Below the pieces are notes generated by a model. It searched no databases. It saw nothing but the letters and a program-made list of their open reading frames with translations, and was not told the origin of the DNA. This document shows positions 1-29,233 of a stretch of DNA of 37,645 bases, piece after piece. Each line of letters starts with the position of its first letter. The first letter of the stretch is position 1. The stretch is from a virus: the IMG/VR virus record IMGVR_UViG_3300013103_001392, positions 1 to 37,645 of that record, one strand, 5' to 3'. The translations under genes and the position numbers were made by a program.

Positions 1-81
1 GAACAAAAAGAAATTAGAGTTGGCTCTCCATCAATTTTTGGAGATGGCTGGAGTAATCCTCCAATTCCGAGAGGATTTTAA
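1..81 (+). CDS. 3' end of a rightward gene, product unknown
   Basis: Frame 1 is open from the first base to a TAA at 79-81 and encodes 26 residues ending in a Gly/Pro/Ser-rich tail (…FGDGWSNPPIPRGF). Such tails are common at the ends of phage structural proteins, but this is too short to assign. The orientation matches the late genes at the right of the window, so on a circular or permuted genome it could be the last late gene. That is inference. The gene is truncated by the window edge. Confidence 0.45.
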   Translation, partial: EQKEIRVGSPSIFGDGWSNPPIPRGF

Positions 82-693: not shown

Positions 694-726
694 TGTTTGA
701 TTCCCACACCACCCCCTCCTTCTAAA

Positions 727-1299: not shown

Positions 1300-1332
1300 G
1301 TTAATTGATTTGATTAACTAATTCTTCGACCT

Positions 1333-2106
1333 TTAAAGAAGTGGCTCAATCTGAGCCCTTATTCGCATTTTGGCTATTTCAACATATTTGGGATCTTTCT
1401 CAATTCCAATGAAATTTCGTTTTAATCTCTTTGCTACTACAGCGGTTGTTCCGCTTCCGAGAAATGGATCTAAAACCAAATCTGTTTCTTTGCTTAGATA
1501 ACTAATCCACTGAATCAACGGTTTTTCGGCTTTTTGTGTGGGGTGATAGCGAGGATGTTGAGGGATGCTGTCTATTACATAATCTTTTGCCTGCCCTAAC
1601 TGCCAATTGAAATATTCTTGTTTTACTTTCTCTTTCGTGAACCATAATGCTACTTCAACTGCTTTCATAAAATCCACCTTGCGACCTCTTGGCACGGGAT
1701 TTGACTTTATCCAATAAAGTGGACTTCTTCCTTTCATTCCTATTTTTTCTAAAAAATTCCAAACAGGAGTAATTTTCTTTTTATCGAAAAAGAAGATAAA
1801 ATGTCTATAAGGTTTCAGAATTCTTACACATTCTCTCAGCCATTCTTTGCACCATTTCAGATATTCATCTTCATTTTGCCATTGTGTATCCCATTCTCCA
1901 AAGTTTAAATCAATATCTTTTGATGCTTTATACTTCGTATTTGCCGATCTTCCTATCTTTATTTCTTGACTAATCATAAAAGGAGGATCTGTGATGATTA
2001 AATCAATAGAATTATCTGGAATTCTTGGCAAAATCTCCAAAGCATCGCCTTCTATTATCTTGTTTTTTATTTCTTCAATTTGAAATTGTTTCATGTTTAG
2101 TTCCAT
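1333..2106 (-). CDS. DNA methyltransferase, beta class (N4-cytosine or N6-adenine)
   Basis: This S-adenosylmethionine-dependent DNA methyltransferase has the catalytic motif DPPF at residues 40-43 near the N-terminus and the SAM-binding motif DPFLGSGTT at 213-221 near the C-terminus, followed by GIEKDPKYVEIA. Motif IV before motif I defines the beta class. DPPF rather than DPPY or SPPY leaves the target base uncertain. At 257 aa it has the length of a solitary phage enzyme, and no restriction endonuclease is adjacent. It probably protects or marks phage DNA. The upstream gene stops at 2097-2099, so the start is ATG 2106 (10-nt overlap) or ATG 2094 (2-nt gap). Either implies translational coupling. 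Confidence 0.88.
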   Translation of the reverse strand: MELNMKQFQIEEIKNKIIEGDALEILPRIPDNSIDLIITDPPFMISQEIKIGRSANTKYKASKDIDLNFGEWDTQWQNEDEYLKWCKEWLRECVRILKPYRHFIFFFDKKKITPVWNFLEKIGMKGRSPLYWIKSNPVPRGRKVDFMKAVEVALWFTKEKVKQEYFNWQLGQAKDYVIDSIPQHPRYHPTQKAEKPLIQWISYLSKETDLVLDPFLGSGTTAVVAKRLKRNFIGIEKDPKYVEIAKMRIRAQIEPLL

Positions 2107-2498
2107 TCGGCTTCAATATCGTTAATTCCTAATTCTTTATCTATTAGTTGGGCTAATTCTTCTAACATTTCAAATGCCTTTTCGAAATCTCTTTCGGTAG
2201 TTTCTGACATTTTTGAGCCGTGTCCGAGTTCCAAACAAAAATCTTGAAATTGCTTGGCAAGTTTACCGATCTTCTTTTTTCTGAATTGTTTGGGAATTTC
2301 AAATTCAAAGAGATGATCAGAAGCACTATTAAAGAAAATTTGGATTCCTCTATTCCGAGCATCTTCTTTATTTATTCCTTTGTGTAGATTTTCGAGTTTC
2401 TCTGCATATTCTATTCCTTGATGCCAATGTTTTGCGAATAAAATCAAATTATAGACAAATCCTCTGCCAAATTTTGAATCAGGGCTCTTCTGGGCCAT
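2097..2498 (-). CDS. Conserved-looking phage hypothetical, 133 aa
   Basis: The function is unknown. The N-terminus (SPDSKFGRGFVYNLILFAKHW) resembles small phage proteins found beside methyltransferase genes. The rest is helical, with a Lys-rich segment FRKKKIGKLAKQF and a C-terminal acidic helix. No catalytic motif or membrane segment is visible. It overlaps the methyltransferase start, so the two are co-translated. The ATG at 2498 is 30 nt downstream of an AAAGGTC motif (2529-2535), and a perfect 12-bp palindrome lies just upstream of that motif. Confidence 0.65.
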   Translation of the reverse strand: MAQKSPDSKFGRGFVYNLILFAKHWHQGIEYAEKLENLHKGINKEDARNRGIQIFFNSASDHLFEFEIPKQFRKKKIGKLAKQFQDFCLELGHGSKMSETTERDFEKAFEMLEELAQLIDKELGINDIEAEWN

Positions 2499-2536
2499 AA
2501 TTAATCTTTAACTATAGTTTAAGAAAATGACCTTTC

Positions 2537-2548
2537 TGAACCATGGTT
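2537..2548. promoter_or_regulatory. Palindrome GAACCATGGTTC, operator-like
   Basis: This perfect 12-bp palindrome sits upstream of the methyltransferase gene pair, immediately beyond the AAAGGTC motif. Related sites occur at 8588-8601 (one mismatch, between two early genes) and at 12138-12150 (core ACCATGGT plus one TTC arm, abutting the -35 of the rightward promoter). A repressor-binding site is a reasonable inference. No repressor gene is identified in the window. Confidence 0.35.
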
Positions 2549-2584
2549 CAAACTCTTGACTAAAAGAGTTTGCCAGTGGTGAAT

Positions 2585-3367
2585 TTAATACATCTTGAAT
2601 TGAAAGCCACACTTGGGACAGATTATATTTCCTTGATGAAAACTTCGAGGATTTCGAATTATCAATTCAAGATTTTCGGGTCTATTATCATCCTTAACCC
2701 CATTCTTATGATGAACTATCTCATAAGATTCCAGAAATCTTCCTAATTCAAGTTCCATTACCAATCTATGTTCATAGATATAAGGATGCTTTTTCGTGGC
2801 TGAGGGATGTTCTGGAAAATATATTTGAACATATCCTCTATCATCCATTCTTATAGTTTTTCTTCCATATTTATCATAATGTTCCTTTCTAGCCCTGCTT
2901 ATCTTTTCTCGCCATTCTTTCGATAATTTTCGTCCTTTCTGTGCTCTACTGATATTCTGTCTCCACTCTTGAGGAAGAGTCTTTCCCTTTAAAGGAGAAT
3001 CATGAGTTTGATAATAAATCTTAAGGCTATTCTTCAATTTCTCTATTGTCTTAAGGGATTTGATTCTTCCTGAATTTGCTTGGCTGATAGCTTTACTCCG
3101 TCTTTCCTTTACTTCTTTGCTTAAATTTTGAAATGCATCACTTAACTTCTTTCTCCATTCAGGATCCGAAAAACAGCATTTTTTAGAACAATAAATTTGA
3201 TTCTTTCTCTGGGTCTTAAACATCTTTTGGCAGAATTTACATTTCTTTTCATACCAAGTCATCGTTCTCGCTTTATGATAACATTCTCGTGAACAATATT
3301 TGCCATTGCTATTTGATGGATAATACTTGAAAACTTTCTGACAATATTTACAAATAGCTTCTTTCAT
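2585..3367 (-). CDS. HNH homing endonuclease with NUMOD3-like repeats
   Basis: The N-terminus has two zinc-binding modules, each CxxC followed about 15-20 residues later by CxxxC. The middle carries helix-turn-helix-like NUMOD3-type repeats with [15 protein letters not shown]-like units. The last third is the HNH nuclease: [13 protein letters not shown], then [19 protein letters not shown], with the HH pair and the N of the motif visible. Such free-standing enzymes cut double-stranded DNA and spread as intron-like mobile genes in phages. An in-frame TTG at 3379 would add four residues, but ATG 3367 is the natural start. The start lies directly against the interleaved-helix element at 3370-3435. 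No intron could be shown around it. Confidence 0.85.
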
Positions 3368-3369
3368 AA

Positions 3370-3435
3370 CTGTAATCAAAAGCCCTCCTTAAGCGGTCGG
3401 CTCGTGGAGGGCACAGTATTTATGAGCCGACCGCT
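3370..3435. ncRNA. Interleaved-helix (pseudoknot-type) element before the HNH gene
   Basis: Two perfect complementary pairs interleave. Pair a is GCCCTCC at 3382-3388 with GGAGGGC at 3406-3412 (7 bp). Pair b is AGCGGTCGGCTC at 3392-3403 with its complement at 3424-3435 (12 bp). The order a-b-a'-b' defines an H-type pseudoknot or two exclusive hairpins. A flanking 10-bp pairing (3370-3379 with 3447-3456, one G-T) could close it. The GC content far exceeds its surroundings. On the leftward transcript it would be the 5' leader of the HNH gene and the 3' tail of the AAA+ gene. Confidence 0.55.
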
Positions 3436-3460
3436 ATAACATTTTCTTGATTATAGCAAA

Positions 3461-4165
3461 TCAGAGACGATTGTCAAGTAATTTCTTTAGCAGAATCTGA
3501 TATGAGTTTGGACTTAATTTGAAAAGCTGAAACGCCTTTTCAAGAATTCTCAAAGAAAGATTTTCTGAACTCAAGCCAATCTTTTCTATAAAATTAACAA
3601 TAGCCATTCTTTGCTTGAAACTTAAATCTTGATATGGCTTTTTTGCTCTTTCTCGCATTAGTTGAAGCAACTCTTGATTTGTAAAAGAGATATGATAAAA
3701 CAATCCCCTATCAATAAATGCTCTAACTATTGGATTATCTTTGAGAATAGAATTGATTAAAAAGATTATTTTTCCGTTGAAATAGAAACTTTTTGTTTCT
3801 ACTTTCCAAGAAGTTGAATACCAAGAAACTTTCCGAGTGCCATTTGGAAGTTGCCATAATGCTCCTTTCAATAATCCAACACTTCTCATATTTCGTAGCA
3901 TTTCTTCGCAATCATCAATAATTCCAATTCTGGGTTCATTTAATTCATTTATTCGTTTCAGTTCTTTGAATAATTGAAGCGGTGTAATGTGTCCATTCAG
4001 ATAGAGATACTCTTGTCCTTCTTTCAAGCCAAATTTTTCTAAAGTTTTAATAGTAGTTTCAGTTTTTCCAATTCCTGGCTTTCCAAGAACTACTAAAGAG
4101 TGAGCATATCCTTTAACAATTCCTTCTATATATCTTTCAAGAATTTTGAATTGATTTAGTTTCAT
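3461..4165 (-). CDS. AAA+ ATPase
   Basis: This 234-aa ATPase has Walker A GKPGIGKT at residues 28-35 (Lys34), Walker B RIGIIDDCEE around 79-88 (Asp84/Asp85) and a sensor-1-like FLINS (Asn138), followed by a helical C-terminal lid. The order and spacing fit the AAA+ fold of clamp-loader or helicase-loader type proteins. A DnaN-like clamp gene in the same transcription direction (6189-6800) makes a replication role attractive, but I cannot separate it from other phage AAA+ families. It ends in TGA at 3461-3463. A TnpB element lies 41 bp upstream of its ATG and separates the gene from an orphan AAAAGGTC motif at 5451-5458. Confidence 0.75.
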   Translation of the reverse strand: MKLNQFKILERYIEGIVKGYAHSLVVLGKPGIGKTETTIKTLEKFGLKEGQEYLYLNGHITPLQLFKELKRINELNEPRIGIIDDCEEMLRNMRSVGLLKGALWQLPNGTRKVSWYSTSWKVETKSFYFNGKIIFLINSILKDNPIVRAFIDRGLFYHISFTNQELLQLMRERAKKPYQDLSFKQRMAIVNFIEKIGLSSENLSLRILEKAFQLFKLSPNSYQILLKKLLDNRL

Positions 4166-4205
4166 ATTGTTTCAATAATTCGGGCAATTTTTCAAATGCC
4201 TGTTA

Positions 4206-4300
4206 GGATAATTTTAGAACCAAAACATTGGTTCTTTCCTAACTTGTGGGATTTATCCCACTTACAGCGGAAGCATAACCGCATTCAGGAGAAAGAATAT
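4206..4300 (-). ncRNA. Candidate TnpB guide RNA (reRNA/omegaRNA) 3' region
   Basis: In TnpB systems the guide RNA overlaps the 3' end of tnpB and runs through the right end of the element. Here the expected place has two stacked hairpins in the leftward sense: GTGGGAT/ATCCCAC at 4246-4261, inside the last codons, and AGAACCAA/TTGGTTCT with a 4-nt loop at 4216-4235. The spacer would be the roughly 16-20 nt just left of 4206 (leftward sense starting near 4205). The exact boundary is not provable here. Confidence 0.45.
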
Positions 4301-5363
4301 ATCTCTCTCCCAGTGTTGCTATGTTTCGAGCGGCTACCAAATCGGCATTTAGTTCATAACCGCACCGGGAACATTTAAAGATTGACTGACTTCGCCTATT
4401 CCTTCTATGGCGGAATCCACATTTGGGACAAGTAATCGAAGTCCCTCGTGGATTTACGGAGAACATCTCCAAGCCAGCCAATCGCAACTTATATTCTATA
4501 AAATTTAATAGTTCTCTAAAACTCCAATGTGCTATCATCTTTCTGGTTCGTTTTGTCAATTTCAATCTTGATCTAATTCCAATTAAATTCTCTACGGCTA
4601 TATTCGCTTTTTCCTTGATAGCAATGTTGACTATTTCTCTGCTAATTTTGTGGTTTATATCTCTCATCCACCTTCTCTCCTTGCCAGAAATCTTCTTTAG
4701 AGATTTTCTATTTTTCTGCAATTCTGCTCTTATCTTCTCAAAATATTGATGTTTCCATCTTATCCATTCTCCTCGCCAAAACTTATTTATTCGACCTTGA
4801 CTATCTGATAGAGTGGCAATTTTGGCAATTCCTAAATCCAATCCTAAAACTTTCTTTGCTTTTTTCTTTTCAGGATTTAGTTGCACCGTGATAAATGCAA
4901 ACCATTTCTTTCTTACCTTCTTAATCTCTACTCTACCACTCTTTTCTAATAATGGCTTATATTCATTTCTTATTTCAAATGGAAGCCAAATTCTCTTTCC
5001 TTTAATCAGATTTAAACCCAAATTTAATTTATCAATTCTTACACTATCTTGTCTGAAAGCACCGAAAATATTAGTAAATCTGGGAAATGTTTTCTTGCCC
5101 TTTTTGCGATAGAATGCTCTGGCTGTCTCTATAGATTTATCTAAAGCAGTTTGAAGATTTTGCGTTGCTATTTCTGGAAACTTTTTCTTTGCCTTTTGAT
5201 ATAACTCAGAATGTAATCGCTTCCTGCTGGTAGTTCTTAATCTTTGTATTTCTTTCAAGTAAAAATTGCAACATTCTGTGAATTCTCGACAGTAGTTTTC
5301 TAACAGAATTTCTTTTCTTTTATTAGGTTTTTTCAATTTTGCTTTGAGAGTGATTATCATCAC
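4239..5363 (-). CDS. tnpB: TnpB RNA-guided DNA endonuclease
   Basis: This 374-aa TnpB is the ancestor-type RuvC nuclease that uses a transposon-end RNA as guide. All three RuvC acidic residues are visible: Asp176 in VLGLDLG, Glu258 in IAVENLIG and Asp341 in ELNADLVAARN. The zinc ribbon uses Cys312/Cys315 and Cys331/Cys334. The N-terminal helical and central beta regions are full length, so the enzyme is probably active. Start ATGATG at 5358-5363, stop TAG at 4239-4241. It is the only gene in the element. In TnpB biology the protein cuts the vacated donor site to retain the element. Confidence 0.92.
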   Translation of the reverse strand: MMIITLKAKLKKPNKRKEILLENYCREFTECCNFYLKEIQRLRTTSRKRLHSELYQKAKKKFPEIATQNLQTALDKSIETARAFYRKKGKKTFPRFTNIFGAFRQDSVRIDKLNLGLNLIKGKRIWLPFEIRNEYKPLLEKSGRVEIKKVRKKWFAFITVQLNPEKKKAKKVLGLDLGIAKIATLSDSQGRINKFWRGEWIRWKHQYFEKIRAELQKNRKSLKKISGKERRWMRDINHKISREIVNIAIKEKANIAVENLIGIRSRLKLTKRTRKMIAHWSFRELLNFIEYKLRLAGLEMFSVNPRGTSITCPKCGFRHRRNRRSQSIFKCSRCGYELNADLVAARNIATLGERYILSPECGYASAVSGINPTS

Positions 5364-5487
5364 CCTCTATTTTATACATTTTGAATCGTTTGTGAACCTC
5401 TGTTTGGTTCTAAAATCGTCCTTTCTTCTATATTGATTGATTGAATTTTTGACCTTTTTAAGTTAAGATAATTGTAATTTCTTCCTC

Positions 5488-5640
5488 TTAATAAGCACCT
5501 TGACGATCTTCAATATAAACATCGTGAGGATTTTCTTTGTTCTCACATCTGGCTATTATTATTCTACAAAGTTTATCTCTTGAGATTTCTTTTTCGTCTG
5601 TTAATTTTTCCCCGCGTAAGGGACAATATAAGGGCATCAT
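5488..5640 (-). CDS. Small hypothetical protein, 50 aa
   Basis: The frame runs from tandem ATGs at 5635-5640 to TAA at 5488-5490. The protein begins MMPLYCPLRGEKLTDEKEIS and ends NPHDVYIEDRQGAY, with three cysteines (CP, C, RC) but no clear zinc finger. The support is context: an AAAGGTC motif at 5662-5668, 21 nt before the start, and tight packing with the next small gene. An orphan copy of the motif lies just beyond its end at 5451-5458. No family is recognised. Confidence 0.6.
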   Translation of the reverse strand: MMPLYCPLRGEKLTDEKEISRDKLCRIIIARCENKENPHDVYIEDRQGAY

Positions 5641-5654
5641 ATGATTGAATTAAG

Positions 5655-5819
5655 TTAGTTTGACCTTTCTTTTGTTAATTCGTTAATTTTTTCAAGGACT
5701 TCTTTACAATCTATCTTTTCTGGCTCGGAATAGCTATTTTCTCCTGATATTTCTGTTCCGTATTCAAAGACAAATTGATTTAATAGATTGGCTAAATGTA
5801 ATAAATCTTCTTTTTCCAT
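5655..5819 (-). CDS. Small acidic hypothetical protein, 54 aa
   Basis: The frame runs from ATG 5819 to TAA 5655-5657. The peptide starts MEKEDLLHLANLLNQFVFEY and ends VLEKINELTKERSN. It is amphipathic and mostly helical, typical of small phage accessory proteins. Unlike its neighbours it has no AAAGGTC leader; the structured RNA at 5835-6189 lies directly upstream, so it may be the first gene after that RNA. It ends 15 nt before the next gene's start. Function unknown. Confidence 0.6.
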   Translation of the reverse strand: MEKEDLLHLANLLNQFVFEYGTEISGENSYSEPEKIDCKEVLEKINELTKERSN

Positions 5820-5834
5820 AAGTTAAACTCTTTT

Positions 5835-6189
5835 AGGGATTAAGAGGTGAAGACCGCCCAAGAAGCCCTCTTAATCTCCTTTAGGAAAGAATTTCAATTT
5901 TTAAGGGGTGATTAAGGACTCACCAACCCCTTGTTTACTAACCGAACAAGGACGGTTTGCTACCTTTGGTAGCCGTCATGAGTTCCTCTGATAAACTCCT
6001 TGAACTTTGTTTGAGATCTTGTCAGGACAATCTGAGAGAATTCCTACCCATCAATTCGGTATTGATGGGCGGTCTTCTCTTTCTCTCCATACAGGAAGGA
6101 TTGTCCAGCAGATCTCTCAAAGTTCAATTCGCTTATCAAAGTCCCTCAATTCTGTCCTCAAAGTAATTTGAGGACAGAGAGAAGGACTT
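5835..6189 (-). ncRNA. Large structured non-coding RNA candidate, about 355 nt (RNA1)
   Basis: The gap between the clamp gene and a small gene is filled with long perfect inverted repeats. They are 5838-5847/5867-5876 (10 bp), 5903-5908/5927-5932 (6 bp), 5929-5935/5945-5951 (7 bp, exclusive with the previous), 5959-5964/5968-5973 inside 5951-5954/5974-5977, and a multi-part arm. The arm pairs 6003-6009/6118-6124, 6013-6019/6110-6116, 6025-6032/6099-6106, 6041-6045/6093-6097 and 6047-6055/6061-6069. Last is 6152-6162/6167-6177 (11 bp, 4-nt loop) within 6139-6144/6184-6189. Strand is inferred from the leftward neighbours. It does not match tRNA, tmRNA or RNase P as far as I can see. Confidence 0.6.
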
Positions 6190-6800
6190 TAATTGCTCTC
6201 TCTTATTGGCATTAAGATAATCTGGGCTTTTTTTCCATTCTTTTTTTCAGCAAGAAAGTGAATTGGCTTTCCTTCCTCAACTGGAATCTGGAGTTCAACA
6301 TTTCTCAAGGGATCATCTATAAATTCCTTCAAAAATTTTGAGATCTTAAAAAGGAAATCTATATTCAATAGAATTTTTATATGTCTCCCTTTCCTTTCTA
6401 AAACTTGCTTGTAATTAGGAAATTCTCCTTCAATTGTTCTACATTTCACGATATTTATGCTACCAAGATCAGTTGAGCCAAATTCTATCCAATCTGGAGT
6501 TTGTTTTAATAAGAAAATATGTTCTAAAACTGGAAATTCAGCCGTTTTAGGAAAAATCTTTAGCAATTTTTCTGTCTCTTCTCTTGGCAAAATAAACGGC
6601 TTAAAATCAAAATTAACCTTCTTTCCTTCAAACTTAGGAATTTCTTCCCTTTCAAGTTTAGAAGTTTGAACTCTTGCTAATGTAAAGCCGTCGGTAGCAC
6701 AAGTTTCTTTTGGAGAGATATAAAGTCCTCTAATTTCCCCTCTTGGTGTTTTCTCGTTTCCTGCGAAATCAATAATTTTTAGATTATCTTTTGAAAGCAT
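6189..6800 (-). CDS. DnaN-like mini sliding clamp
   Basis: The 203-aa protein carries landmarks of the bacterial DNA polymerase III beta clamp. These are the ISPKETCATDGFTLARV segment (residues 28-44, like the family's 'ATDGHRLA'), EGEFPNYKQVL (about 124-134, like 'EGxFPDYxxVIP') and a C-terminal ILMPIR (like 'YVIMPMRL'). Full-length DnaN is about 370 aa in three domains, so this is roughly half size and would need a different oligomer or a reduced ring. It would tether a polymerase or other replication factors to DNA. ATG 6800 follows AAAGGTC at 6821-6827 by 20 nt, and there is no Shine-Dalgarno site. The assignment rests on motifs only. Confidence 0.65.
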   Translation of the reverse strand: MLSKDNLKIIDFAGNEKTPRGEIRGLYISPKETCATDGFTLARVQTSKLEREEIPKFEGKKVNFDFKPFILPREETEKLLKIFPKTAEFPVLEHIFLLKQTPDWIEFGSTDLGSINIVKCRTIEGEFPNYKQVLERKGRHIKILLNIDFLFKISKFLKEFIDDPLRNVELQIPVEEGKPIHFLAEKKNGKKAQIILMPIRESN

Positions 6801-6825
6801 AATAGAATGATTTGAATAATGACCT

Positions 6826-7062
6826 TTAACTTAAAGAAGCATTGTCCCAATAAGTATTTATATCATTGGCAAAGCGTTCATTGAGCCACCAAAGGAATGC
6901 TTCTTCCAAATCTTTATTATTCTTTCTCTTAAATCTTTTGTCGGCTTTAATTTCAATTATTCTGGCTGGAGATTGAACTAATCGTTTTTTGTTATCTTTT
7001 TTGAAACTCCAGTCATTTTCTAATAATTCTGGTCTTAAAATTGTTAACTCTAATTTGCTCAT
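6826..7062 (-). CDS. Hypothetical 78-aa protein
   Basis: No family is recognised. The N-terminal half is basic (KKDNKKRLVQSPARIIEIKADKR…) and the C-terminal half is aromatic and acidic (EEAFLWWLNERFANDINTYW). It is preceded by 14 nt after the stop of the 7077-7283 gene and has no AAAGGTC motif of its own, so it is probably translated from the same message as that gene. It ends close to the motif that precedes the clamp gene. Confidence 0.6.
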   Translation of the reverse strand: MSKLELTILRPELLENDWSFKKDNKKRLVQSPARIIEIKADKRFKRKNNKDLEEAFLWWLNERFANDINTYWDNASLS

Positions 7063-7076
7063 ACTTGATTGAATAA

Positions 7077-7283
7077 TTAAGTTAAATAGTCGGTATTTAA
7101 ATCAATTTCATCTTTCAGCACTTTCCCACAATCTTCACAAAATATAGAAATCATCTTTTCGCTAACAAAATTTTCTCCCAAATCCAAATCATCTTTTTCC
7201 CAAGTTTTCTCAAATCCTTCTGGAAAGTAATATCTTGATTTATAAGTTATTATAATGTTCTTATGCTTACATTTTTCAGACAT
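7077..7283 (-). CDS. Small putative zinc-binding protein, 68 aa
   Basis: The peptide starts MSEKCKHKN and has FCEDCGKVL near residues 49-57, so a CxH…CxxC metal site is plausible. The middle is acidic and aromatic. It starts 2 nt after the stop of the 7286-7786 gene (coupled translation) and is followed by another small gene. Function unknown; adaptor or inhibitor roles are typical of such phage proteins but not demonstrated. Confidence 0.6.
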   Translation of the reverse strand: MSEKCKHKNIIITYKSRYYFPEGFEKTWEKDDLDLGENFVSEKMISIFCEDCGKVLKDEIDLNTDYLT

Positions 7284-7285
7284 AG

Positions 7286-7786
7286 TTAGAAATAAACATC
7301 AGCAGGGACTACATAAATTTTTAGACCTTTGTATTCCTTATCATTGTTCCATTTATTCAAAACATAATTTAGATGTTCTATACTCTTAATTCCTTCTCCA
7401 TCGTTATCATATAGAAAACAGGACGAGCCACGATGTTGCCCAATCAAATAGCAACGATAACGAAAGAGATTGTCATCAAAACTCTTTAGAAGTAGTTGAT
7501 AATTGCTTTTCTTTTTCAAAATCTCCCTGATTATTTTCAAATTCCTATAAAATTCCTGTTTGGTAGATCTCCATCCGTCTCCTATCAGTTTCTTTCCTAT
7601 TTTTGAGTTTGCTAAAGTAATAACTGGCAAATTTCCCCATCTTTTTCTTGGACTTTCTTTATCAAAAGTGCTATAGTAATCAAAAGGATATTGATTCTCA
7701 CATAAACTTTCAAATATCTCTTTCGCTTTCTCTAATCCTTCTTCCTTATTTTTGGCATAAACTATTGCTCTAATGAGTTGATGCAT
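7286..7786 (-). CDS. Conserved phage hypothetical, 166 aa
   Basis: The N-terminus (MHQLIRAIVYAKNKEEGLEKAKEIFESL) followed by FDYYSTFD and RWGNLPVITLANSKIGKKLI resembles a protein family seen repeatedly in phages and plasmids, which I recall only as hypothetical. It looks like an alpha/beta domain without a visible catalytic motif. The end contains YRCYLIGQHRGSSCFLYDND and KGLKIYVVPADVYF. ATG 7786 lies inside the end of the upstream 58-aa gene, 25 nt before its stop. The variant AAAGGTT at 7813-7819 takes the place of the usual AAAGGTC, about 28 nt upstream. Confidence 0.7.
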   Translation of the reverse strand: MHQLIRAIVYAKNKEEGLEKAKEIFESLCENQYPFDYYSTFDKESPRKRWGNLPVITLANSKIGKKLIGDGWRSTKQEFYRNLKIIREILKKKSNYQLLLKSFDDNLFRYRCYLIGQHRGSSCFLYDNDGEGIKSIEHLNYVLNKWNNDKEYKGLKIYVVPADVYF

Positions 7787-7938
7787 AATTCATTTTTAAG
7801 TTTATTTAAATAACCTTTAGAGGGAGAAGCGATTATGAGACCATAATTGTCTCTTACAAAATCTTTCTTCTTTTCATCCCAAATCGCCCATAATTTTAGA
7901 TTAAGAACTTCTGTTAAAAATTTCACTTTATATCTCAT
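7762..7938 (-). CDS. Small hypothetical protein, 58 aa
   Basis: The frame runs from ATG 7938 to TAG 7762-7764 and overlaps the following gene by 25 nt. The sequence begins MRYKVKFLTEVLNLKLWAIW and continues with a charged middle and a Lys-rich end. The beta-strand-like 'MRYKVKF' opening parallels the 57-aa protein at 8374-8547 (MKFRVKF). It is the first gene after structured RNA2 and the strong leftward promoter at 8262-8289, so it should be well transcribed. Function unknown. Confidence 0.55.
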   Translation of the reverse strand: MRYKVKFLTEVLNLKLWAIWDEKKKDFVRDNYGLIIASPSKGYLNKLKNELCINSLEQ

Positions 7939-7947
7939 AAGGAAGGA

Positions 7948-8199
7948 TTGCCAGTTTTACAATTTGCCCCGAAAACTGGCAAAAGAGGGCTGTTGCTCTT
8001 TCTTTTGAAGGGAGTTTCACTCCTCTTTAACTTCTTACATAACTGAACCCCGAATAAGGAAGTAGTGAGATAAAGCCGAATAATGGATTTAGCCCTAATA
8101 TCTCCTTGAAAAGGTTTTGGCTTCCATTATCTCGGCTATGGCTAAATAAGTAAATTATCTTTGAGAAAATTCACTACCTCCTTACCGTTGAGTTATGTA
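7948..8199 (-). ncRNA. Structured non-coding RNA candidate with pseudoknot (RNA2)
   Basis: Perfect or near-perfect pairings are 7948-7958/7972-7982 (11 bp), 7982-7987/7996-8001, 8011-8015/8019-8023, 8036-8044/8191-8199 (9 bp, closing), 8056-8068/8171-8183 (one mismatch), 8068-8073/8155-8160 and 8074-8087/8123-8137 (14 bp, one bulge). Segment 8087-8094 (ATTTAGCC) also pairs perfectly with 8140-8147, which interleaves with the previous helix and makes a pseudoknot. The consensus leftward promoter at 8262-8289 would start transcription near 8255, just before this element, which supports the minus strand. It could be a free RNA or a long leader of the 58-aa gene. No Rfam class is recognised. Confidence 0.6.
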
Positions 8200-8261
8200 T
8201 ATGTAATAGTTAAAAGAGCAACTAATTATTCAATCACTATTCATTCTTTCCTCTACTATTC

Positions 8262-8289
8262 ATTATACTCATTTTTGGAACTTTGTCAA
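8262..8289 (-). promoter_or_regulatory. Consensus sigma-70 promoter, leftward
   Basis: In the leftward sense, TTGACA (8284-8289) and TATAAT (8262-8267) are both perfect and separated by 16 bp. Transcription would start near 8255 and enter RNA2 and the genes leftward of it. A second TTGACA lies at 8338-8343 without a good partner. A DnaA box sits between them. Confidence 0.75.
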
Positions 8290-8298
8290 TATCTATCC

Positions 8299-8307
8299 TG
8301 TGGATAA
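8299..8307 (-). promoter_or_regulatory. DnaA box
   Basis: Read leftward the site is TTATCCACA, the exact bacterial DnaA consensus. It lies 10 bp upstream of the -35 of the strong leftward promoter. It is a single copy, so it could mean DnaA-dependent regulation rather than an origin. Confidence 0.45.
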
Positions 8308-8373
8308 CTTAATTTTTGCTATTTTGGTTCTTGGCTTTGTCAACATTGTAAAGAACTCTCTATTTGCTTAAAC

Positions 8374-8547
8374 TTAATTGCTCTTTCTTTCAATTTCTTT
8401 AATAGAAGTTTTGCTCATAATCTCATCTATTGTAATGTTCTCCCAATATAAATAATCGGTAATATCCTCAATTGCTCTCTCTAATGCTTCGTTCTTATCT
8501 TTTGCTTCTATTATTGTGTCTATTTCAAATTTTACTCTAAATTTCAT
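8374..8547 (-). CDS. Small hypothetical protein, 57 aa
   Basis: The frame runs from ATG 8547 to TAA 8374-8376. The peptide begins MKFRVKFEIDTIIEAKDKNE and ends with a helical EIMSKTSIKEIERKSN. Its beta-strand plus 'EAKDKNEALERAIED' pattern is typical of very small phage alpha/beta proteins. AAAAGGTC at 8568-8575 is 20 nt upstream, and a near-palindromic GAACCATG-TTTC site lies at 8588-8601. Function unknown. Confidence 0.6.
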   Translation of the reverse strand: MKFRVKFEIDTIIEAKDKNEALERAIEDITDYLYWENITIDEIMSKTSIKEIERKSN

Positions 8548-8601
8548 AGTTAATTTAGAGTTAAATCGACCTTTTTTGAGTTAAAATTGAACCATGTTTC
8601 A

Positions 8602-8835
8602 CTAAAATCCTACTATTCTATAACATTCTAAATTGTGAAAATACAATCTTAAAGGATATTTCCAAGCTCGGCTCATTATTATTATTTCATGCTCTTGTTT
8701 ATCTCCGCTTCCTTTTACTTTCTCTACTATTGCTAAATTTTTATCTATCTTTTTCCAAAATTCCTCATAATCGTTGTTTTTAACTTTGTTTCCTAAATTT
8801 TCCCACCAACTTAAAATTTCTCTTTTTGTTTTCAT
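8602..8835 (-). CDS. Hypothetical 77-aa protein
   Basis: No family is recognised. The first half is helical and Trp-rich (REILSWWENLG, EEFWKKIDKN). The second half is basic and strand-like (HEIIIMSRAWKYPLRLYF). AAAAGGTC at 8861-8868 lies 25 nt before the ATG, and the leader between them is AT-rich and G-poor. Confidence 0.6.
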   Translation of the reverse strand: MKTKREILSWWENLGNKVKNNDYEEFWKKIDKNLAIVEKVKGSGDKQEHEIIIMSRAWKYPLRLYFHNLECYRIVGF

Positions 8836-8872
8836 TTTAATTGCTATGTTTAACTTATATGACCTTTTGAAC

Positions 8873-8986
8873 TTAATAGGAGTTTAATAACCTCAAAAGA
8901 GATATGAGTTTTATTAACTGAATAGCTAAATATATGCTCAATATGAAAGCTATCCCCGACAAAACTAAAACAATCTTTTTCATCAT
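8873..8986 (-). CDS. Single-pass membrane micropeptide, 37 aa
   Basis: The frame runs from tandem ATGs at 8981-8986 to TAA 8873-8875. After MMKK comes an uninterrupted hydrophobic stretch (IVLVLSGIAFILSIYLAI…), long enough for one membrane helix. The gene has its own AAAAAAGGTC leader (9005-9014, 18 nt before the start) and lies after a G-run motif, like its neighbours. Such peptides in phages can be lysis inhibitors or superinfection-exclusion factors, but this one is unassigned. Confidence 0.55.
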   Translation of the reverse strand: MMKKIVLVLSGIAFILSIYLAIQLIKLISLLRLLNSY

Positions 8987-9040
8987 AATTGAGATCTAAA
9001 TTTAGACCTTTTTTAACCCACCCACCCACCGCTTTTCTTC

Positions 9041-9700
9041 TTAAGTATAAACAATCTCGGCTTTTTTCATCGGCTTGGCTGTAAATTCTTTGATAAATCT
9101 TAAAACTTCTACTTCTCCGACTATGCTAACCTCATCAACTACTTTTTCATTCTCCCTGACTATTATTCTATAAACCTCACCTCCTAAAAGTTTATTCCAA
9201 TAATCTACCAAACTCTCGGCTAATTTTTCCGCCTTTTTTCTTGTTTTTGCTATCTTTTTACTTACTAAAACTAATCCAACATGAGAAGTATCCCAACCAC
9301 CAGGATCAGAGATGAAACCGCTATATCCAAGTTTCAACCAAACCCCGCCATGTATTAAACAACTTAACTCAAAAATCCAATACCCTTTCTCTCTTTCTGT
9401 TTTTATCCAATCTCTTTCTCCTCTATATAATTCGGCTGTTTCCTCTTTTGTTATTATGTCATTTCTTTCTATCCAAAAATCTCTATGATAATTTACTAAA
9501 AATACTTCCTTATCCTCTTTCAAATCATCAAATAAATCATCATAAAATTTCTCGTTTCTTATCTCAAACTCTAAACCTCTAAATTTTATAACCCTGTATG
9601 TTTCCGTCTTATATCCTGTTGGTATAATCTCTTCCCGCTCTTCTTCTTTTGCTCCTCTCCTTACTAAATCTGCCCAAATTGTTGAAGTTTCTTTTAACAT
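9041..9700 (-). CDS. Conserved phage hypothetical, 219 aa
   Basis: The protein carries the string LIHGGVWLKLGYSGF followed by SDPGGWDTSHVGLVLVSKK (about residues 115-150). I recall this pattern from a common phage family annotated only as hypothetical. The N-terminus is acidic, and the C-terminal part (AEKLAESLVDYWNKLLGGEVY) matches the same family layout. No catalytic motif is evident. ATG 9700 follows AAAAAGGTC at 9731-9739 by 30 nt. Stop TAA is at 9041-9043, 8 nt from a G-run motif. Confidence 0.7.
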   Translation of the reverse strand: MLKETSTIWADLVRRGAKEEEREEIIPTGYKTETYRVIKFRGLEFEIRNEKFYDDLFDDLKEDKEVFLVNYHRDFWIERNDIITKEETAELYRGERDWIKTEREKGYWIFELSCLIHGGVWLKLGYSGFISDPGGWDTSHVGLVLVSKKIAKTRKKAEKLAESLVDYWNKLLGGEVYRIIVRENEKVVDEVSIVGEVEVLRFIKEFTAKPMKKAEIVYT

Positions 9701-9876
9701 AGGAATCTCTTTTTTTTACTTAAATTGACCGACCTTTTTATAAATTTTGAACCTTATTTTCATTGTGGCTTAATTTATGCTCTTAAAAGAATTTTATTTA
9801 TTTTGTTTTGTTTTTTTCTTGTTTTGTAGTTAATTTTTTATGCTTTTTTAATCCCACCCGCCCACCGCTTCTCTCT

Positions 9877-10278
9877 TTACTTTTCATCTTTTATCATCTG
9901 TTTTATTCTGTCTTCTATCTCAAAATAGAGATCATTCTCGGCTGTAAAAAATGCTTGTCCCATTATCGCTTCTTCTGGCTCTTTGCCCTCCCACAATCCT
10001 GAATCTGTTTCTACCTCGTTGCTCTCTTCTATCACTTTAACTGCTGAACTTAATTCTGTGTTTCTATCTTCGCACCAATCACTTCTTAAAAATCCATACC
10101 AAGCACTATCTAAAAACTCAAAAATCTTATTGTTTAAATCCCAATTTTGGTATATTTCATCCCAGATCTCCTCGTCCGTCTTCTCTTTATTTTCTTTTAT
10201 TATCTCTCTTAACTCATCCTTATATTCGCTTATAAAATCATCGGCTAAATCTTTGATTGCTTGGTAGTATGTTTTCAT
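9877..10278 (-). CDS. Conserved-looking phage hypothetical, 133 aa
   Basis: The protein is acidic and mostly helical: a long first half (YYQAIKDLADDFISEYKDEL, EIWDEIYQNWDLNNKIFEFL) and a tail with GQAFFTAENDLYFEIEDRI. It resembles proteins found beside the 219-aa family in other phages, but I can offer no function. ATG 10278 is 29 nt after AAAAGGTC at 10308-10315, and a hairpin-forming G-rich segment lies further up at 10332-10371. Confidence 0.6.
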   Translation of the reverse strand: MKTYYQAIKDLADDFISEYKDELREIIKENKEKTDEEIWDEIYQNWDLNNKIFEFLDSAWYGFLRSDWCEDRNTELSSAVKVIEESNEVETDSGLWEGKEPEEAIMGQAFFTAENDLYFEIEDRIKQMIKDEK

Positions 10279-10373
10279 GGTTTTTTTGATTGTTTTAATT
10301 ATTGACCGACCTTTTATGATGCCTTAAAGCACCAACCGAGACCCACCCCTAAAGGATGGGTTACGGCTGGGAC

Positions 10374-10565
10374 TTAAAGCACCTTAAAATCTTTACCATT
10401 TTTCAATCCGTCTTTCAGCATTGCCTCTCTTATACTCTCAATATATCGCCAATCAATAGAGATACCGAGACCACCGACTAACTGCCAGCTTTCATAATTT
10501 AGATATTTTTTTGCCCATTTTTTGGCTTTATCGCTTAATAAAGCAAGTAAATATATAGTTTTCAT
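10374..10565 (-). CDS. Small hypothetical protein, 63 aa
   Basis: The start is placed at ATG 10565 because AAAAAGGTC (10593-10601) then lies 27 nt upstream, as for its neighbours. A longer frame to 10631 would translate that motif and the G-rich repeat. The peptide is MKTIYLLALLSDKAKKWAKK followed by an aromatic and glycine-containing region and a basic end. No family is recognised. Confidence 0.6.
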   Translation of the reverse strand: MKTIYLLALLSDKAKKWAKKYLNYESWQLVGGLGISIDWRYIESIREAMLKDGLKNGKDFKVL

Positions 10566-10627
10566 GGGATCTCTTTTTTTTGTTATTTTAAAGACCTTTT
10601 TAATTCCCAACCCGCCCACCGCTTTAA

Positions 10628-10861
10628 TCAATCTAATTTTTTAAACTCCCTCCATTGCTTAACTGATAACTCCTCGACCAATTTTAAGATCTCAATCTCT
10701 TTTTTAATTGATTCTATCCAAACCTTAATGTTTAAAAATCTTTGCTCTTCATGGCTCTTTTCAATCTCATTTTCTATTCTTCTACAATAATTCTTTATCT
10801 CATTTATACACTTCATTGCTAAAATTCTATGTTCTTTTAATTGTTTAAGATCTTTTTTCAT
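10628..10861 (-). CDS. Small coiled-coil hypothetical protein, 77 aa
   Basis: The start is set at ATG 10861, 33 nt after AAAAAAGGTC at 10895-10904; the longer frame to 10924 would read through the intergenic repeats. The product is highly charged and helical (KKDLKQLKEHRILAMKCINE, EIEKSHEEQRFLN), probably a coiled coil. It ends in TGA at 10628-10630. Function unknown. Confidence 0.6.
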   Translation of the reverse strand: MKKDLKQLKEHRILAMKCINEIKNYCRRIENEIEKSHEEQRFLNIKVWIESIKKEIEILKLVEELSVKQWREFKKLD

Positions 10862-10933
10862 GTTTTCTCTTTCTTTTTCTTTTTCAATTTTCCCGACCTT
10901 TTTTAAATAACCCAACCCGCCCACCGCTTTTAT

Positions 10934-11128
10934 TTATTTTCTCCTTGCTTCTTTAATAGCTTGCTCAATATCTCTCCTTAACAAGCATGGTTCATAGCCA
11001 TCTTTTTTACTTCTTTCAATGGCTAATTGCTCCGCTCTTTTAAGAACTTTATTCGTTATCAACTTTGAATTTTCTAACATTGATGCCATCGCTCCTAAAC
11101 TTTGGGGGATTCTCTTTTCTTTTTTCAT
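10934..11128 (-). CDS. Small basic hypothetical protein, 64 aa
   Basis: The peptide begins MKKEKRIPQSLGAMASMLEN and ends RDIEQAIKEARRK. It is helical, with a possible helix-turn-helix size, but no convincing DNA-binding signature. ATG 11128 is 24 nt after AAAAGGTC at 11153-11160, and a G-run motif at 11164-11182 lies just beyond. Function unknown. Confidence 0.6.
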   Translation of the reverse strand: MKKEKRIPQSLGAMASMLENSKLITNKVLKRAEQLAIERSKKDGYEPCLLRRDIEQAIKEARRK

Positions 11129-11188
11129 ATTGTTTTATTTTTTTTGAATTTAGACCTTTTGAACCCAAAACCCGCCCACCACTTAAGA

Positions 11189-11383
11189 TTATTTTAAAAT
11201 TTTTAATGCTTTACATTGTTTAACTTGCCAATCCGCCCAGTAAAATCCTTTATATTCTCTTGACCATTTTAACCATTTTAAACACTCCGCCCGTTCCTGT
11301 TTTTTTATCCCTTCATTTAAAATCCATAAAAAGCCCGCCAATAGTAGAAAAAGCCCCAAAATTCCCAAAATTTTTTTGATCAT
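11189..11383 (-). CDS. Small membrane-anchored protein, 64 aa
   Basis: The N-terminal MIKKILGILGLFLLLAGFLW is a signal-anchor-like hydrophobic helix with a positive start. The remaining 40 residues are Trp/Lys-rich with two cysteines. It is probably an inner-membrane peptide with a short extracytoplasmic tail. AAAAGGTC at 11403-11410 is 19 nt before the ATG. Function unknown; early phage membrane peptides often target host envelope processes. Confidence 0.6.
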   Translation of the reverse strand: MIKKILGILGLFLLLAGFLWILNEGIKKQERAECLKWLKWSREYKGFYWADWQVKQCKALKILK

Positions 11384-11470
11384 AGTGTTTATTTCTTATT
11401 AAGACCTTTTACGGGTAAAGAACCCACCGAGACGGACTATTTAAAAGATAGCCCGCCTCCGTTGATTCTC

Positions 11471-11623
11471 TTATTTTTGACCCAGTGCTTCCTTTCTACA
11501 TTTTAAAGAGCAGTATTTAGCATACGGTTTATTTTTGGGGATTTTACCCCCGCACCATATACAAGCAAGATAAAGTGGTTTCTTCTTTTTTCTTTTTTTC
11601 ATATTCTCTCCTCTTATTTTCAT
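11471..11623 (-). CDS. Small zinc-ribbon protein, 50 aa
   Basis: The frame runs from ATG 11623 to TAA 11471-11473. The zinc ribbon is CIWCGGKIPKNKPYAKYCSLKC, preceded by a Lys-rich stretch. Two starts compete. ATG 11623 lies 23 nt after AAAGGTC at 11647-11653, like its neighbours, whereas ATG 11602 has an AGGAGAG Shine-Dalgarno site 4 nt upstream. It is the first gene of the leftward block after the promoter at 11662-11690. A small imperfect hairpin (about 11430-11455) follows the gene. It is possibly a transcription or nucleic-acid-binding adaptor. Confidence 0.6.
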   Translation of the reverse strand: MKIRGENMKKRKKKKPLYLACIWCGGKIPKNKPYAKYCSLKCRKEALGQK

Positions 11624-11661
11624 GTTTTGTTTTATTTTTCATTTTCGACCTTTACACCTTT

Positions 11662-11690
11662 AGTATAATTGAACCAAAAATTCAGATCAA
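11662..11690 (-). promoter_or_regulatory. Leftward sigma-70-like promoter of the early block
   Basis: Read leftward, TTGATC (11685-11690), a 17-bp spacer and TATACT (11662-11667) form a good promoter. Its start near 11655 would put the AAAGGTC motif (11647-11653) at the very 5' end of the message for the zinc-ribbon gene. A better -35, TTGACA, lies at 11693-11698 but is 25 bp from the -10. Confidence 0.5.
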
Positions 11691-11729
11691 CCTTGTCAAG
11701 ACCCCGAAAAAACCCCGTAAAATCAAGCA

Positions 11730-11793
11730 AAAACCGCCCCTGTGGAAAACTTTTTTCAGTTTTTAAATTTTAAAACCGCCCTGTGGAAAACTT
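11730..11793. repeat. Two direct repeats with DnaA-like boxes
   Basis: A unit of about 22 bp, AAAACCGCCC(C) followed by TGTGGAAAACTT, occurs at 11730-11752 and 11772-11793. Read leftward each contains TTTTCCACA, one change from the DnaA consensus TTATCCACA. A separate 13-bp direct repeat (AGCCAAAACAAGA) follows at 11799-11811 and 11875-11887. Their place in the divergent gap suggests an origin or a replication-linked control region. Confidence 0.45.
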
Positions 11794-11981
11794 CAGCAAG
11801 CCAAAACAAGAAAGAGAAAACAAAAAGAAAACAACCAGCCCTCCGGTGAAAAGAAAAGAAAACAAAACAAGACCAGCCAAAACAAGACAAGAAAAAGAAC
11901 CAGACCGCTGTGATCTAAAAAAAGAACAAGGAAAGAAGAAAAGAAAAGACCAGAAAAAAAAGAAAGAAGCCGGAAGGCAAG
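11794..11981. other. T-depleted tract in the divergent intergenic hub, possible origin
   Basis: Only six of 188 plus-strand bases are T; the rest is mainly A with G and C. This strand asymmetry is unlike any other part of the window. A Lys/Glu-rich frame (11783-12025) passes through, but its composition is explained by the tract. The adjacent DnaA-like repeats and outward promoters make a replication origin the leading guess. No stable hairpin is seen inside. Confidence 0.4.
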
Positions 11982-12137
11982 TCATTCTTCTCCTTCCACC
12001 CGAAATAAACTTCAAAACTCGCTAAGAACCATTGGTTATTAATTGTAAATTGCTATCCTCTAAATAGAAAATTCTATGAATACTATTCTTTGAACAGGAA
12101 ATGATCCTCAAATAATTCCAAAGAGTTAAGAATAATT

Positions 12138-12180
12138 GCACCATGGTTCACTTGACACTTCTTATAGAATTGATAATATT
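12138..12180 (+). promoter_or_regulatory. Rightward late-module promoter with operator-like overlap
   Basis: A perfect TTGACA at 12152-12157 is followed by TAATAT at 12174-12179 with a 16-bp spacer (or AATATT at 12175 with 17). The ACCATGGTTC site at 12140-12149 abuts the -35 and resembles the palindromes at 2537-2548 and 8588-8601. The transcript would start about at the ATG of the 12188 gene, so its leader would be very short or absent. Confidence 0.55.
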
Positions 12181-12187
12181 AGTTAGT

Positions 12188-12406
12188 ATGATTTGCCCGT
12201 TTTGTCATCATAGAGTAGGAAGAATGTTTATAGAAGATGATGAGAAAAGAGAAGTCCGCTGTCCTTATTGCGGAGAACTGTTATATACCGATCAAAAAGA
12301 AATGAGAGATCAACCTACTCTGAAATGTCCTCGATGCGGAAATCATTCTAGAAACGATTATTGTTCTCATTGCGGATATGAGTTTAAAGAAGGGGTTGAT
12401 TATTAA
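12188..12406 (+). CDS. Double zinc-ribbon protein, 72 aa
   Basis: Four cysteine pairs are visible: ICPFC, RCPYCG, KCPRCG and YCSHCG. They form two zinc ribbons in 72 residues. ATG 12188 is chosen because the longer frame from 12143 begins inside the promoter and operator. Zinc-ribbon proteins of this kind often bind nucleic acid or RNA polymerase. As the first gene of the rightward operon it could be a late regulator, but that is inference. It ends 44 nt before the portal gene. Confidence 0.65.
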   Translation: MICPFCHHRVGRMFIEDDEKREVRCPYCGELLYTDQKEMRDQPTLKCPRCGNHSRNDYCSHCGYEFKEGVDY

Positions 12407-12450
12407 TTGCTTGACCTTTAGCTTCAAAGGAGTTTAAATAAACTAAAAAT

Positions 12451-13884
12451 GTGGCTTTCTTTGATTTTCTAAAAAAACGAAAAAAGAAGGAAGAAAAAAG
12501 AAGAAATGTTTTAACCTTGGATCAGATGGTTAAGGAATTAGGAGTCGCCAGAGAAGGCGTGATTTCTTCTTATGAGGTTGAAGAGAATCCTGATGATTTA
12601 GGACCTGAGACTTATATTCAAATGCAGAAAAACGATGGAGAAGTTCAGGCAATTGTCAGACTTTTTACTTTGCCGATAATCTCGACCCCTTGTCATATTC
12701 TTCCTGCTAAAGGAGATAAAGGAGAAAGAGATTTTATAGAAACTGTATTCACCGCTCCTCCAAAATTAGGCGGAATGACAACTCCGCTTCCTTTTCTTAT
12801 TGCTGATATGACAAGGGCTATTTTTGAAGGTTTTCGTCTATATGAAAAAGTGGCTAGAATAATTGAAGAAGGAAAATACAAAGGATTTGTTGGCTGGAAA
12901 AAATTAGCTCCAAGAGATGCCAGAACCATTCAATTGAAAGCTGATGAACATGGAGGATTTAACGGAGCAAGACAAGAAGCGTTTTTTGGGGGAAAACAAA
13001 TTTCTGTTGATATTCCTCCTGAAAAGTGCATGCTTTTTACTTTTCAAAAAGAAAAACATTGGCTTTATGGAGAATCTATTCTAAAAACTGCTTTCTATCA
13101 TTATGAGAAAAAACATAAACTTTATTATATTGCTCACAAAAAAGCGGAAATTGAATCTTTAGGTTTAAAGATTTTGCGAATTAATAACACAATGACGCCT
13201 GCTCAAAGAGAAAAAGCAGAAGAAGTAGTTGATACAATAGGAATTAATTCGAGGGTAACCCTGCCTCCGGGCGTTGATTTGGAAATAGAAAGAGGGGGCG
13301 GAGGATATGATCCTTTGCCCTTGATAGAACATCACAATTTAATGATGGCTCGTTCTGCTATTTGTCAAGCTATTGATCAAGTAAAATATGCCTATCCTTA
13401 TGGAAAAGGAACTCCTTCATCTCAATTCTTAATAATGTCCATTGAATCAATCATGAGACAAATGGAAGCTACTCTTAACACTTATGCCGTTGCTCCTTTA
13501 ATAGATTTTAATTTTGGAACTTCTGCCTATCCTCAGATAAAATTTGAGAAAATTTCTGATCCCTCCAAAGAATTTCTGATGAATGTCTTTAATCAAATAA
13601 TGAAAGCAAAAGTTGGACTTCCTAAAGGCTTTATTGATCAAGTTATAGATGAAACAGCAAAGAGTTTGAATCTTAAATGGGCTTTAGAAGAAAAGACAGA
13701 AAATAAAGAGGCTTTAGAAGCTTTTGAAAGAGGAAAACTTGAACAATCTAATAAATTAAGAATAAAAGCTCCTCCAACGCCAAAAAGTCTGAAAGAAAAG
13801 ATTTTAAAGGTTAAAAATACTCCTGAAAACCTAACTCGTTGTTATGAGTTAGGCAAAGAATTTGCTTATGTCGGAGGAAAGTAA
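12451..13884 (+). CDS. Phage portal protein, Mu gp29-like
   Basis: The portal forms the dodecameric ring at the capsid vertex through which DNA is packed and ejected. The 477-aa protein has the Mu gp29/DUF935-like sequence course: an N-terminal basic segment, EVQAIVRLFTLPII, PRDARTIQLK, the stretch P-PEKCMLFTFQKEKHWLYGESIL with AFYHYEKKHKL, and a C-terminal helical region after a GGGGYDPLPLIEHHN loop. The start is GTG 12451, because the same frame has a TAA just upstream and the ATG at 12449 is out of frame. AAAGGAG lies about 20 nt upstream, unusually far. The position before protease and capsid genes fits. No terminase is adjacent. Confidence 0.85.
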   Translation: MAFFDFLKKRKKKEEKRRNVLTLDQMVKELGVAREGVISSYEVEENPDDLGPETYIQMQKNDGEVQAIVRLFTLPIISTPCHILPAKGDKGERDFIETVFTAPPKLGGMTTPLPFLIADMTRAIFEGFRLYEKVARIIEEGKYKGFVGWKKLAPRDARTIQLKADEHGGFNGARQEAFFGGKQISVDIPPEKCMLFTFQKEKHWLYGESILKTAFYHYEKKHKLYYIAHKKAEIESLGLKILRINNTMTPAQREKAEEVVDTIGINSRVTLPPGVDLEIERGGGGYDPLPLIEHHNLMMARSAICQAIDQVKYAYPYGKGTPSSQFLIMSIESIMRQMEATLNTYAVAPLIDFNFGTSAYPQIKFEKISDPSKEFLMNVFNQIMKAKVGLPKGFIDQVIDETAKSLNLKWALEEKTENKEALEAFERGKLEQSNKLRIKAPPTPKSLKEKILKVKNTPENLTRCYELGKEFAYVGGK

Positions 13885-13990
13885 AAATCCTTGGATTTGT
13901 CCCAGGTGCGGTAGAGAAAATAAAGCGGAAAATTCTCATTGTAAGTATTGCGGATGGCCAAAAGACGCAAGAGTTCTTCCAGACGATTAA
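13868..13990 (+). CDS. 40-aa zinc-ribbon protein between portal and polyprotein
   Basis: The frame runs from ATG 13868 to TAA 13988-13990. The start overlaps the portal end by 17 nt, and the next gene starts after one base (TAATATG), so all three are translationally coupled. Residues WICPRCGRENKAENSHCKYCGW form one CxxC…CxxC ribbon. The role is unknown. The position in the head operon suggests a small virion or assembly factor. Confidence 0.65.
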   Translation: MSEESKNPWICPRCGRENKAENSHCKYCGWPKDARVLPDD

Positions 13991-13991
13991 T

Positions 13992-27067: not shown

Positions 27068-27075
27068 ATCAAATT

Positions 27076-29232: not shown

Positions 29233-29233
29233 A

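Follow-up and report, generated by a model that had tools for sequence, protein, structure and literature searches.

RNA2, a putative structured non-coding RNA behind an early promoter in an uncultivated phage and two of its relatives

To our knowledge, few structured non-coding RNAs of phages have been described, and several of them have no assigned function. Outside this group, 6S RNA is a rod-shaped molecule closed by an outer stem, while phi29 has a small packaging RNA whose loops might pair. Among the large and ornate RNAs, GOLLD has its genes in prophages and phages and its level goes up during lysis, many GOLLD RNAs being longer than 800 nt, according to one account (PMC12286853). The locus described here, referred to as RNA2, lies in an IMG/VR record of 37,645 bases from an uncultivated phage, the whole of which is called the window. 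On the basis of its sequence and of those of two related phages, L002 and L064, we read RNA2 as a real, new and narrowly distributed class of phage RNA with three members. No RNA resembling it was found in the literature covered, outside which subscription journals and bioRxiv mostly fall.

Genomic setting and predicted fold

The window harbors a portal gene (12451-13884, PHROG 113), rightward genes including a head protease and glycan genes, and a leftward block of small genes extending from about 12000 to position 1. The portal shares less than 60% identity with the nearest annotated phages (about 25% for the ten listed); its alignment against genome contigs yielded no relative. No tRNA was found in the window. 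The leftward block contains a sliding-clamp-like gene (6189-6800) that matches TIGR00663 with an E value of 4.8e-07, under the curated cut-off, and PHROG 947, "DNA polymerase processivity factor", with 4.9e-07, its top PHROG being 3007, named RusA-like resolvase. The same block includes a TnpB gene (4239-5363), and an HNH protein is also encoded in the window. The TnpB element is spanned by an inverted repeat (4205-4224/5403-5422), and the 3' end of tnpB (4161-4360, minus strand) folds strongly (z -8.9) and is probably the TnpB omega RNA. Between the portal and the head protease, a single ORF of 2241 aa (13992-20717, plus strand) shows matches to a hydrolase, an ATP-dependent ligase, a D12 methyltransferase, LAGLIDADG and a LigD-type phosphoesterase, and may be read as a fusion or intein-bearing protein. 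A carbohydrate block (25644-31106, plus strand) comprises heptose-kinase-like, cupin, NAD epimerase, methyltransferase and sulfotransferase genes.

The fold scan of the window (1,876 overlapping stretches of 160 nt; mean z -0.35, sd 1.5) placed RNA2 among the strongest signals, several places scoring higher, including 22641, 4201 and 6041; the top scores of all (z about -11 and -9) fall at 22601-22840, within the head-protease ORF. The RNA2 core (8030-8205, minus strand) folds at -55.8 kcal/mol versus a shuffle mean of -31.4 (z -6.96, with 0/200 shuffles as good), and for the longer stretch 7940-8255 on the same strand (z -6.79) no shuffle was as good either. No minus-strand ORF of at least 40 aa exists between 7938 and 8374. 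The features of the locus are the following:

8297-8310, minus: box AAGTTATCCACAGG, containing TTATCCACA, 29 nt upstream of the -10 element
8262-8289, minus: sigma-70-type promoter TTGACA-16-TATAAT, 12/12, predicted start at about 8255
7948-8222, minus: RNA2 body from outer stem to terminal hairpin, ends putative, fold z about -7, homologues in L002 and L064
8213-8222, minus: outer stem, 5' strand GTTGCTCTTT, 10 bp with 7992-8001
7992-8001, minus: outer stem, 3' strand AAAGAGCAAC, partner 8213-8222
8191-8199, minus: P1, 5' strand, 9 bp with 8036-8044
8036-8044, minus: P1, 3' strand, partner 8191-8199
8184-8189, minus: AACGGT, 5' side of an internal loop, same in L002
8046-8055, minus: ATTCGGGGTT, 3' side of the AACGGT loop, same in L002, not found in L064
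8171-8184, minus: P2, 5' strand, 14 bp with 8055-8068
8055-8068, minus: P2, 3' strand, partner 8171-8184
8124-8137, minus: P3, 5' strand (8132-8137 plus 8124-8130), 13 bp, 6+7 with one bulge
8074-8086, minus: P3, 3' strand, partner 8124-8137
8116-8125, minus: P3 apex GGAAGCCAAA, same in L064, GAAGCCCAAA in L002
8140-8147, minus: candidate pseudoknot, 5' strand, unproven, partner 8087-8094
8087-8094, minus: candidate pseudoknot, 3' strand, unproven, partner 8140-8147
8010-8023, minus: small hairpin with GTGAAACTCCC, same in L002
7948-7982, minus: terminal hairpin, 11 bp (7972-7982/7948-7958), loop beginning with CGG, pattern found in the window, L002 and L064 only, of 37 records

The initial annotation had described a 9-bp stem (8191-8199/8036-8044) enclosing a 14-bp helix and a 13-bp helix, followed by an 11-bp hairpin. 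All four were recovered on the minus strand, the 14-bp helix at 8171-8184/8055-8068, the 13-bp helix as 6+7 bp around one bulge (with 8074-8086) and the hairpin at 7972-7982/7948-7958, while the outer 10-bp stem (8213-8222/7992-8001) had been overlooked. The same annotation treated an 8-bp pseudoknot (8087-8094/8140-8147) as a defining feature; the complement is present in the sequence and stays a candidate pairing, but it is not significant and that role is not supported. In mononucleotide shuffles of both segments, at least 8 Watson-Crick pairs arise with P 0.033, and the unpaired strands cost 9.2 kcal/mol, of which the duplex gives back -8.4 before any pseudoknot penalty. L002 has no equivalent of the pseudoknot sequence, its 7-bp all-AU alternative being set differently (P 0.03), and in the predicted folds of both phages a nested AGCC/GGCU stem competes for the pseudoknot bases. 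A kissing interaction is possible between GGGG of the terminal loop and CUCCC of the small hairpin, whose letters are invariant in the window and L002.

Relatives of RNA2 and conservation of its fold

The search for portal relatives of the window retrieved 19 loci at first and 35 later; among these, L002 has a portal 86% identical to that of the window. The promoter regions of the two phages align in blastn over 71 nt at 80%, while their RNA bodies were not connected by blastn. At the syntenic place (5684-5416, minus strand), L002 harbors an RNA with the same plan (z -8.19, 0 shuffles as good), separated from its promoter by a 118-aa ORF. A MAFFT alignment built without any structural information revealed 131 identical bases out of 230 aligned (57%), and the blocks identical in the two RNAs, i.e., AACGGT, ATTCGGGGTT and GTGAAACTCCC, are all loops or helix ends. 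On this alignment, the named pairs, which were picked for agreeing registers (P1, P3 and the outer stem have mismatched registers and are uncounted), are standard in both phages in 24/24 cases, with six changed on both sides and three retained as G-U on the RNA strand; when the pair partners were shifted by 1-3 columns, pairing went down to 42-52% of cells. In the covariation shuffle control the observed values were reached 11 times out of 500, as expected from two sequences. The outer 8 pairs of P2 are kept in L002, three of them being changed on both sides; the outer stem is there 15 bp long (GTTAATTCTCTTTTT/AAAAAGAGAATTAAC), P1 has 10 bp and letters unlike those of the window, and the position of P3 is occupied by a 13-bp helix in another register. 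Compensatory changes in homologues, which the initial annotation had chosen as its test of the RNA, are thus found between the window and L002, and L064 follows the same plan.

L064 was reached via the alignment of clamp proteins, and its RNA was spotted by reading past its box and promoter, not by a model. The RNA (7938-8181, plus strand; z -6.14, 0 shuffles as good) lies within about 25 nt after a TTGACA-16-TATAAT promoter, whose TATAAT is 29 nt from the box AAGTTATCCACAGC. It possesses an outer stem, a 12-bp P1 of its own letters and GGAAGCCAAA as in the window, and in its terminal hairpin CCGGTTTCGGAAGTAAATAGCAAACCGG a G-C pair replaces the A-U pair of the other two; the internal loops AACGGT/ATTCGGGGTT are not recognisable. 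L064 is, in other words, related through its position, plan and hairpin rather than through its sequence as a whole. The pattern CCRGTTTN{10,18}AAACYGG with a loop beginning with CGG matches 3/37 records, namely the three loci, and its reversed form matched none of the 37; since R and Y were set after all three members were known, the weight of this result lies in the empty background. In each of the three RNAs an outer stem closes a rod, the fold is far beyond that of shuffles, and the RNA strand folds better than the opposite one. The conserved loops are CGG-RR-..AAUWG in all three phages and AACGGU/AUUCGGGGUU together with GUGAAACUCCC in the window and L002. The same design written in largely different letters in two relatives suggests that it is the fold itself that seems to be preserved, even though with only three members the covariation statistics are thin.

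Further members were sought in several ways. Rfam 15 covariance models at the gathering cut-off matched nothing in the window or in L021, L088, L089, L097 and L113, which hold the three RNAs, the top sub-threshold match in 7800-8400 being unrelated (E 0.58). A covariance model of RNA2 (R1) run on 37 records gave strong matches in the window and L002 only and did not report L064; its weak matches (E 0.017-6.4) were not accepted, and the two such places that were read contained no other motif. The neighbouring proteins of 219 and 166 aa, each searched alone, retrieved no relatives, while an alignment of the 166-aa protein led to three more phages (L060-L062), upstream of which neither motif searches nor reading of the sequence disclosed RNA2 motifs. 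Scanning viral contigs for TTCGGGGTT..TGAAACTCC gave 30 stretches, of which L002 (as L031) is real and 29 were judged chance, several being mutual copies; in a like scan of genome contigs, the three matches were all apparently coding or unrelated. A tight hairpin pattern matched L002 only among viral contigs, but it is narrower than the later one and would miss L064.

Promoter, upstream box and companion RNA

A TTGACA-16-TATAAT promoter had been proposed upstream of the RNA, and it is indeed present (8289-8262, minus strand; 12/12, start predicted near 8255). It is not the single best of the window, as had been claimed, since the site at 3477-3450 (minus strand) is equally 12/12 and also has TG before the -10. 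Nor does it appear unique and dedicated to the RNA, given this second site, the 118-aa ORF interposed in L002, and L003, where a near-identical promoter without a recognisable box leads to a small ORF but to no RNA of this type. The promoter is directly followed by the RNA in the window and in L064. Scans listed no terminator-like site on the minus strand between 5400 and 8200, so that the transcript need not stop at the 58-aa gene. The 12/12 promoter has a 16-nt spacer in the window, L002 and L064 and a 17-nt spacer in L003, while L009 has TACAAT; weak promoter-like sites in 1-19000 are at chance level (61 versus 60.2 expected). A survey of 37 records detected 43 sites of 12/12, against two for the reversed pattern; 36 of the 43 were examined after repeats and sites with less than 250 nt downstream had been dropped. 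A fold with z of -4 or lower occurs in the next 300 nt for 7/36 promoters versus 3/60 random stretches, which indicates that strong promoters here are not generally RNA promoters. In L133 (G035:40200-40900), a more distant relative, a strongly folded RNA (z -6.6) with a sequence unlike RNA2 lies after a 12/12 promoter.

The box AAGTTATCCACAGG contains TTATCCACA, which we take to be the E. coli DnaA-box consensus. It is also located upstream of TATAAT in L002 (at 30 nt) and, with one base different, in L064 (at 29 nt). The loci examined, related through the portal or the clamp, contain eight exact copies of AAGTTATCCACAGG, six of which have TATAAT 20 or 29-30 nt downstream, two distances one helical turn apart, suggesting that the box is a promoter element. 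Boxes of the form AAGTTWTCCACAGG stand before early promoters of the window (8297-8310, 11739-11752 and 11780-11793, minus strand) and in L017 and L018.

A second structured RNA is located directly downstream of the clamp-like gene in six phages:

window, 5825-6188, minus: companion RNA
L002, 3160-3560, minus: companion RNA
L007, 5500-5950, minus: companion RNA
L009, 1500-2135, minus: companion RNA
L012, 1000-1510, minus: companion RNA
L064, 9546-10050, plus: companion RNA

Its fold reaches z -8.3 in the window and -6.3 in L002, and its plan combines hairpins at the 5' and 3' ends with a long rod between them, a loop near CTTTGGTRGTYTC recurring in the 3' hairpin of several phages; the loop pattern with one mismatch matches 10/37 records and is not specific, its reversed control matching too. 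This companion RNA shows no sequence homology to RNA2, has no Rfam match in the window and seems to be more widespread. In L012, a very long hairpin stem around a loop of 40-50 nt lies between early ORFs (2520-2640, minus strand).

Possible role of RNA2 and comparison with known systems

The explanation that we favour, and hold to be about as likely to be right as wrong, is that 7948-8222 (minus strand) specifies a non-coding RNA some 270 nt long, which is produced early, comes first after the box and promoter, and acts in trans. RNA2 would be transcribed early from the box-plus-sigma-70 promoter of the leftward operon and fold into a rod closed by the outer stem, followed by the 3' hairpin with its conserved loop of 13-14 nt. 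It would then be freed from the operon transcript, probably by processing, since no U-run follows the terminal hairpin, which might shield the 3' end; through the conserved loops, it may bind a protein or RNA of the host or of the phage. RNA2 would probably act in trans early in infection.

A different possibility, less probable than the previous one, is that RNA2 works in cis, as the leader of the early operon, and controls the translation or stability of the small genes downstream. It sits between promoter and small ORF in the window and in L064, ending in the window some 10 nt short of the start codon, a leader-like spacing; the companion RNA (5825-6188) likewise lies just before an ORF, and in both the window and L002 the 3' strand of the outer stem has a potential second partner in the bases that follow this stem, a possible switch. 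However, the ORFs following the RNA in the three genomes (58, 47 and 70 aa) are unrelated, which argues against a gene-specific control in cis. For a leader, RNA2 is long; its outer stem is self-contained, and no terminator comes after it. That the locus is instead a DNA element, such as a replication origin or a cruciform, with an incidental RNA fold, appears improbable. A DnaA-box-like site adjoins it, a sliding-clamp-like gene is nearby and the fold of the opposite strand is good as well; nevertheless, the box recurs before the promoters of relatives, with TATAAT 20 or 29-30 nt on in 6/8 cases, which looks like promoter control, and the sign of the GC skew switches near 12000 rather than 8000. 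The retained G-U pairs would become A-C in the opposite DNA strand and, together with the better fold of the transcribed strand, favour an RNA.

The TnpB and HNH proteins of the window might also point to a mobile-element RNA with a guide or accessory role, or to the relic of a group I/II intron or a retron, an origin that we regard as very improbable. The TnpB of the window has no tblastn match in L002, which does possess the RNA; RNA2 is about 2.6 kb upstream of tnpB, whose structured 3'-end stretch (4161-4360), the place expected for an omega RNA, is elsewhere; and neither an Rfam intron match nor, among the proteins scanned, a reverse transcriptase was found. Returning to an early RNA acting in trans, a broader and rather doubtful extension is that this lineage makes early structured RNAs on one plan (RNA2, and the companion RNA after the clamp gene) as a trans-acting takeover kit, with RNA2 first and the DnaA-like box timing it to the replication state of the host. 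RNAs of this kind diverge so quickly that they escape sequence search even when the portals of two phages are 86% identical, while the preserved fold, the conserved terminal loop and the defined early promoter make RNA2 a compact target for finding binding partners.

When compared with described systems, RNA2 shares with 6S RNA the rod and the outer stem, but differs in having a distinct 3' hairpin, which carries a conserved loop of its own, and no Rfam match. With the phi29 packaging RNA it shares a small size, a phage origin and potentially pairing loops, whereas RNA2 is located in an early rather than a packaging region, again without an Rfam match. GOLLD and ROOL, two large and ornate RNAs known from phages and bacteria, are found near tRNA islands, whereas RNA2, unmatched in Rfam and in a window devoid of tRNAs, belongs to an early operon after its promoter. 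In size, RNA2, at about 270 nt, contrasts with the more than 800 nt given for many GOLLD RNAs (PMC12286853). Like GOLLD and ROOL, to which no function has been assigned either, it is a phage-encoded, highly structured non-coding RNA.
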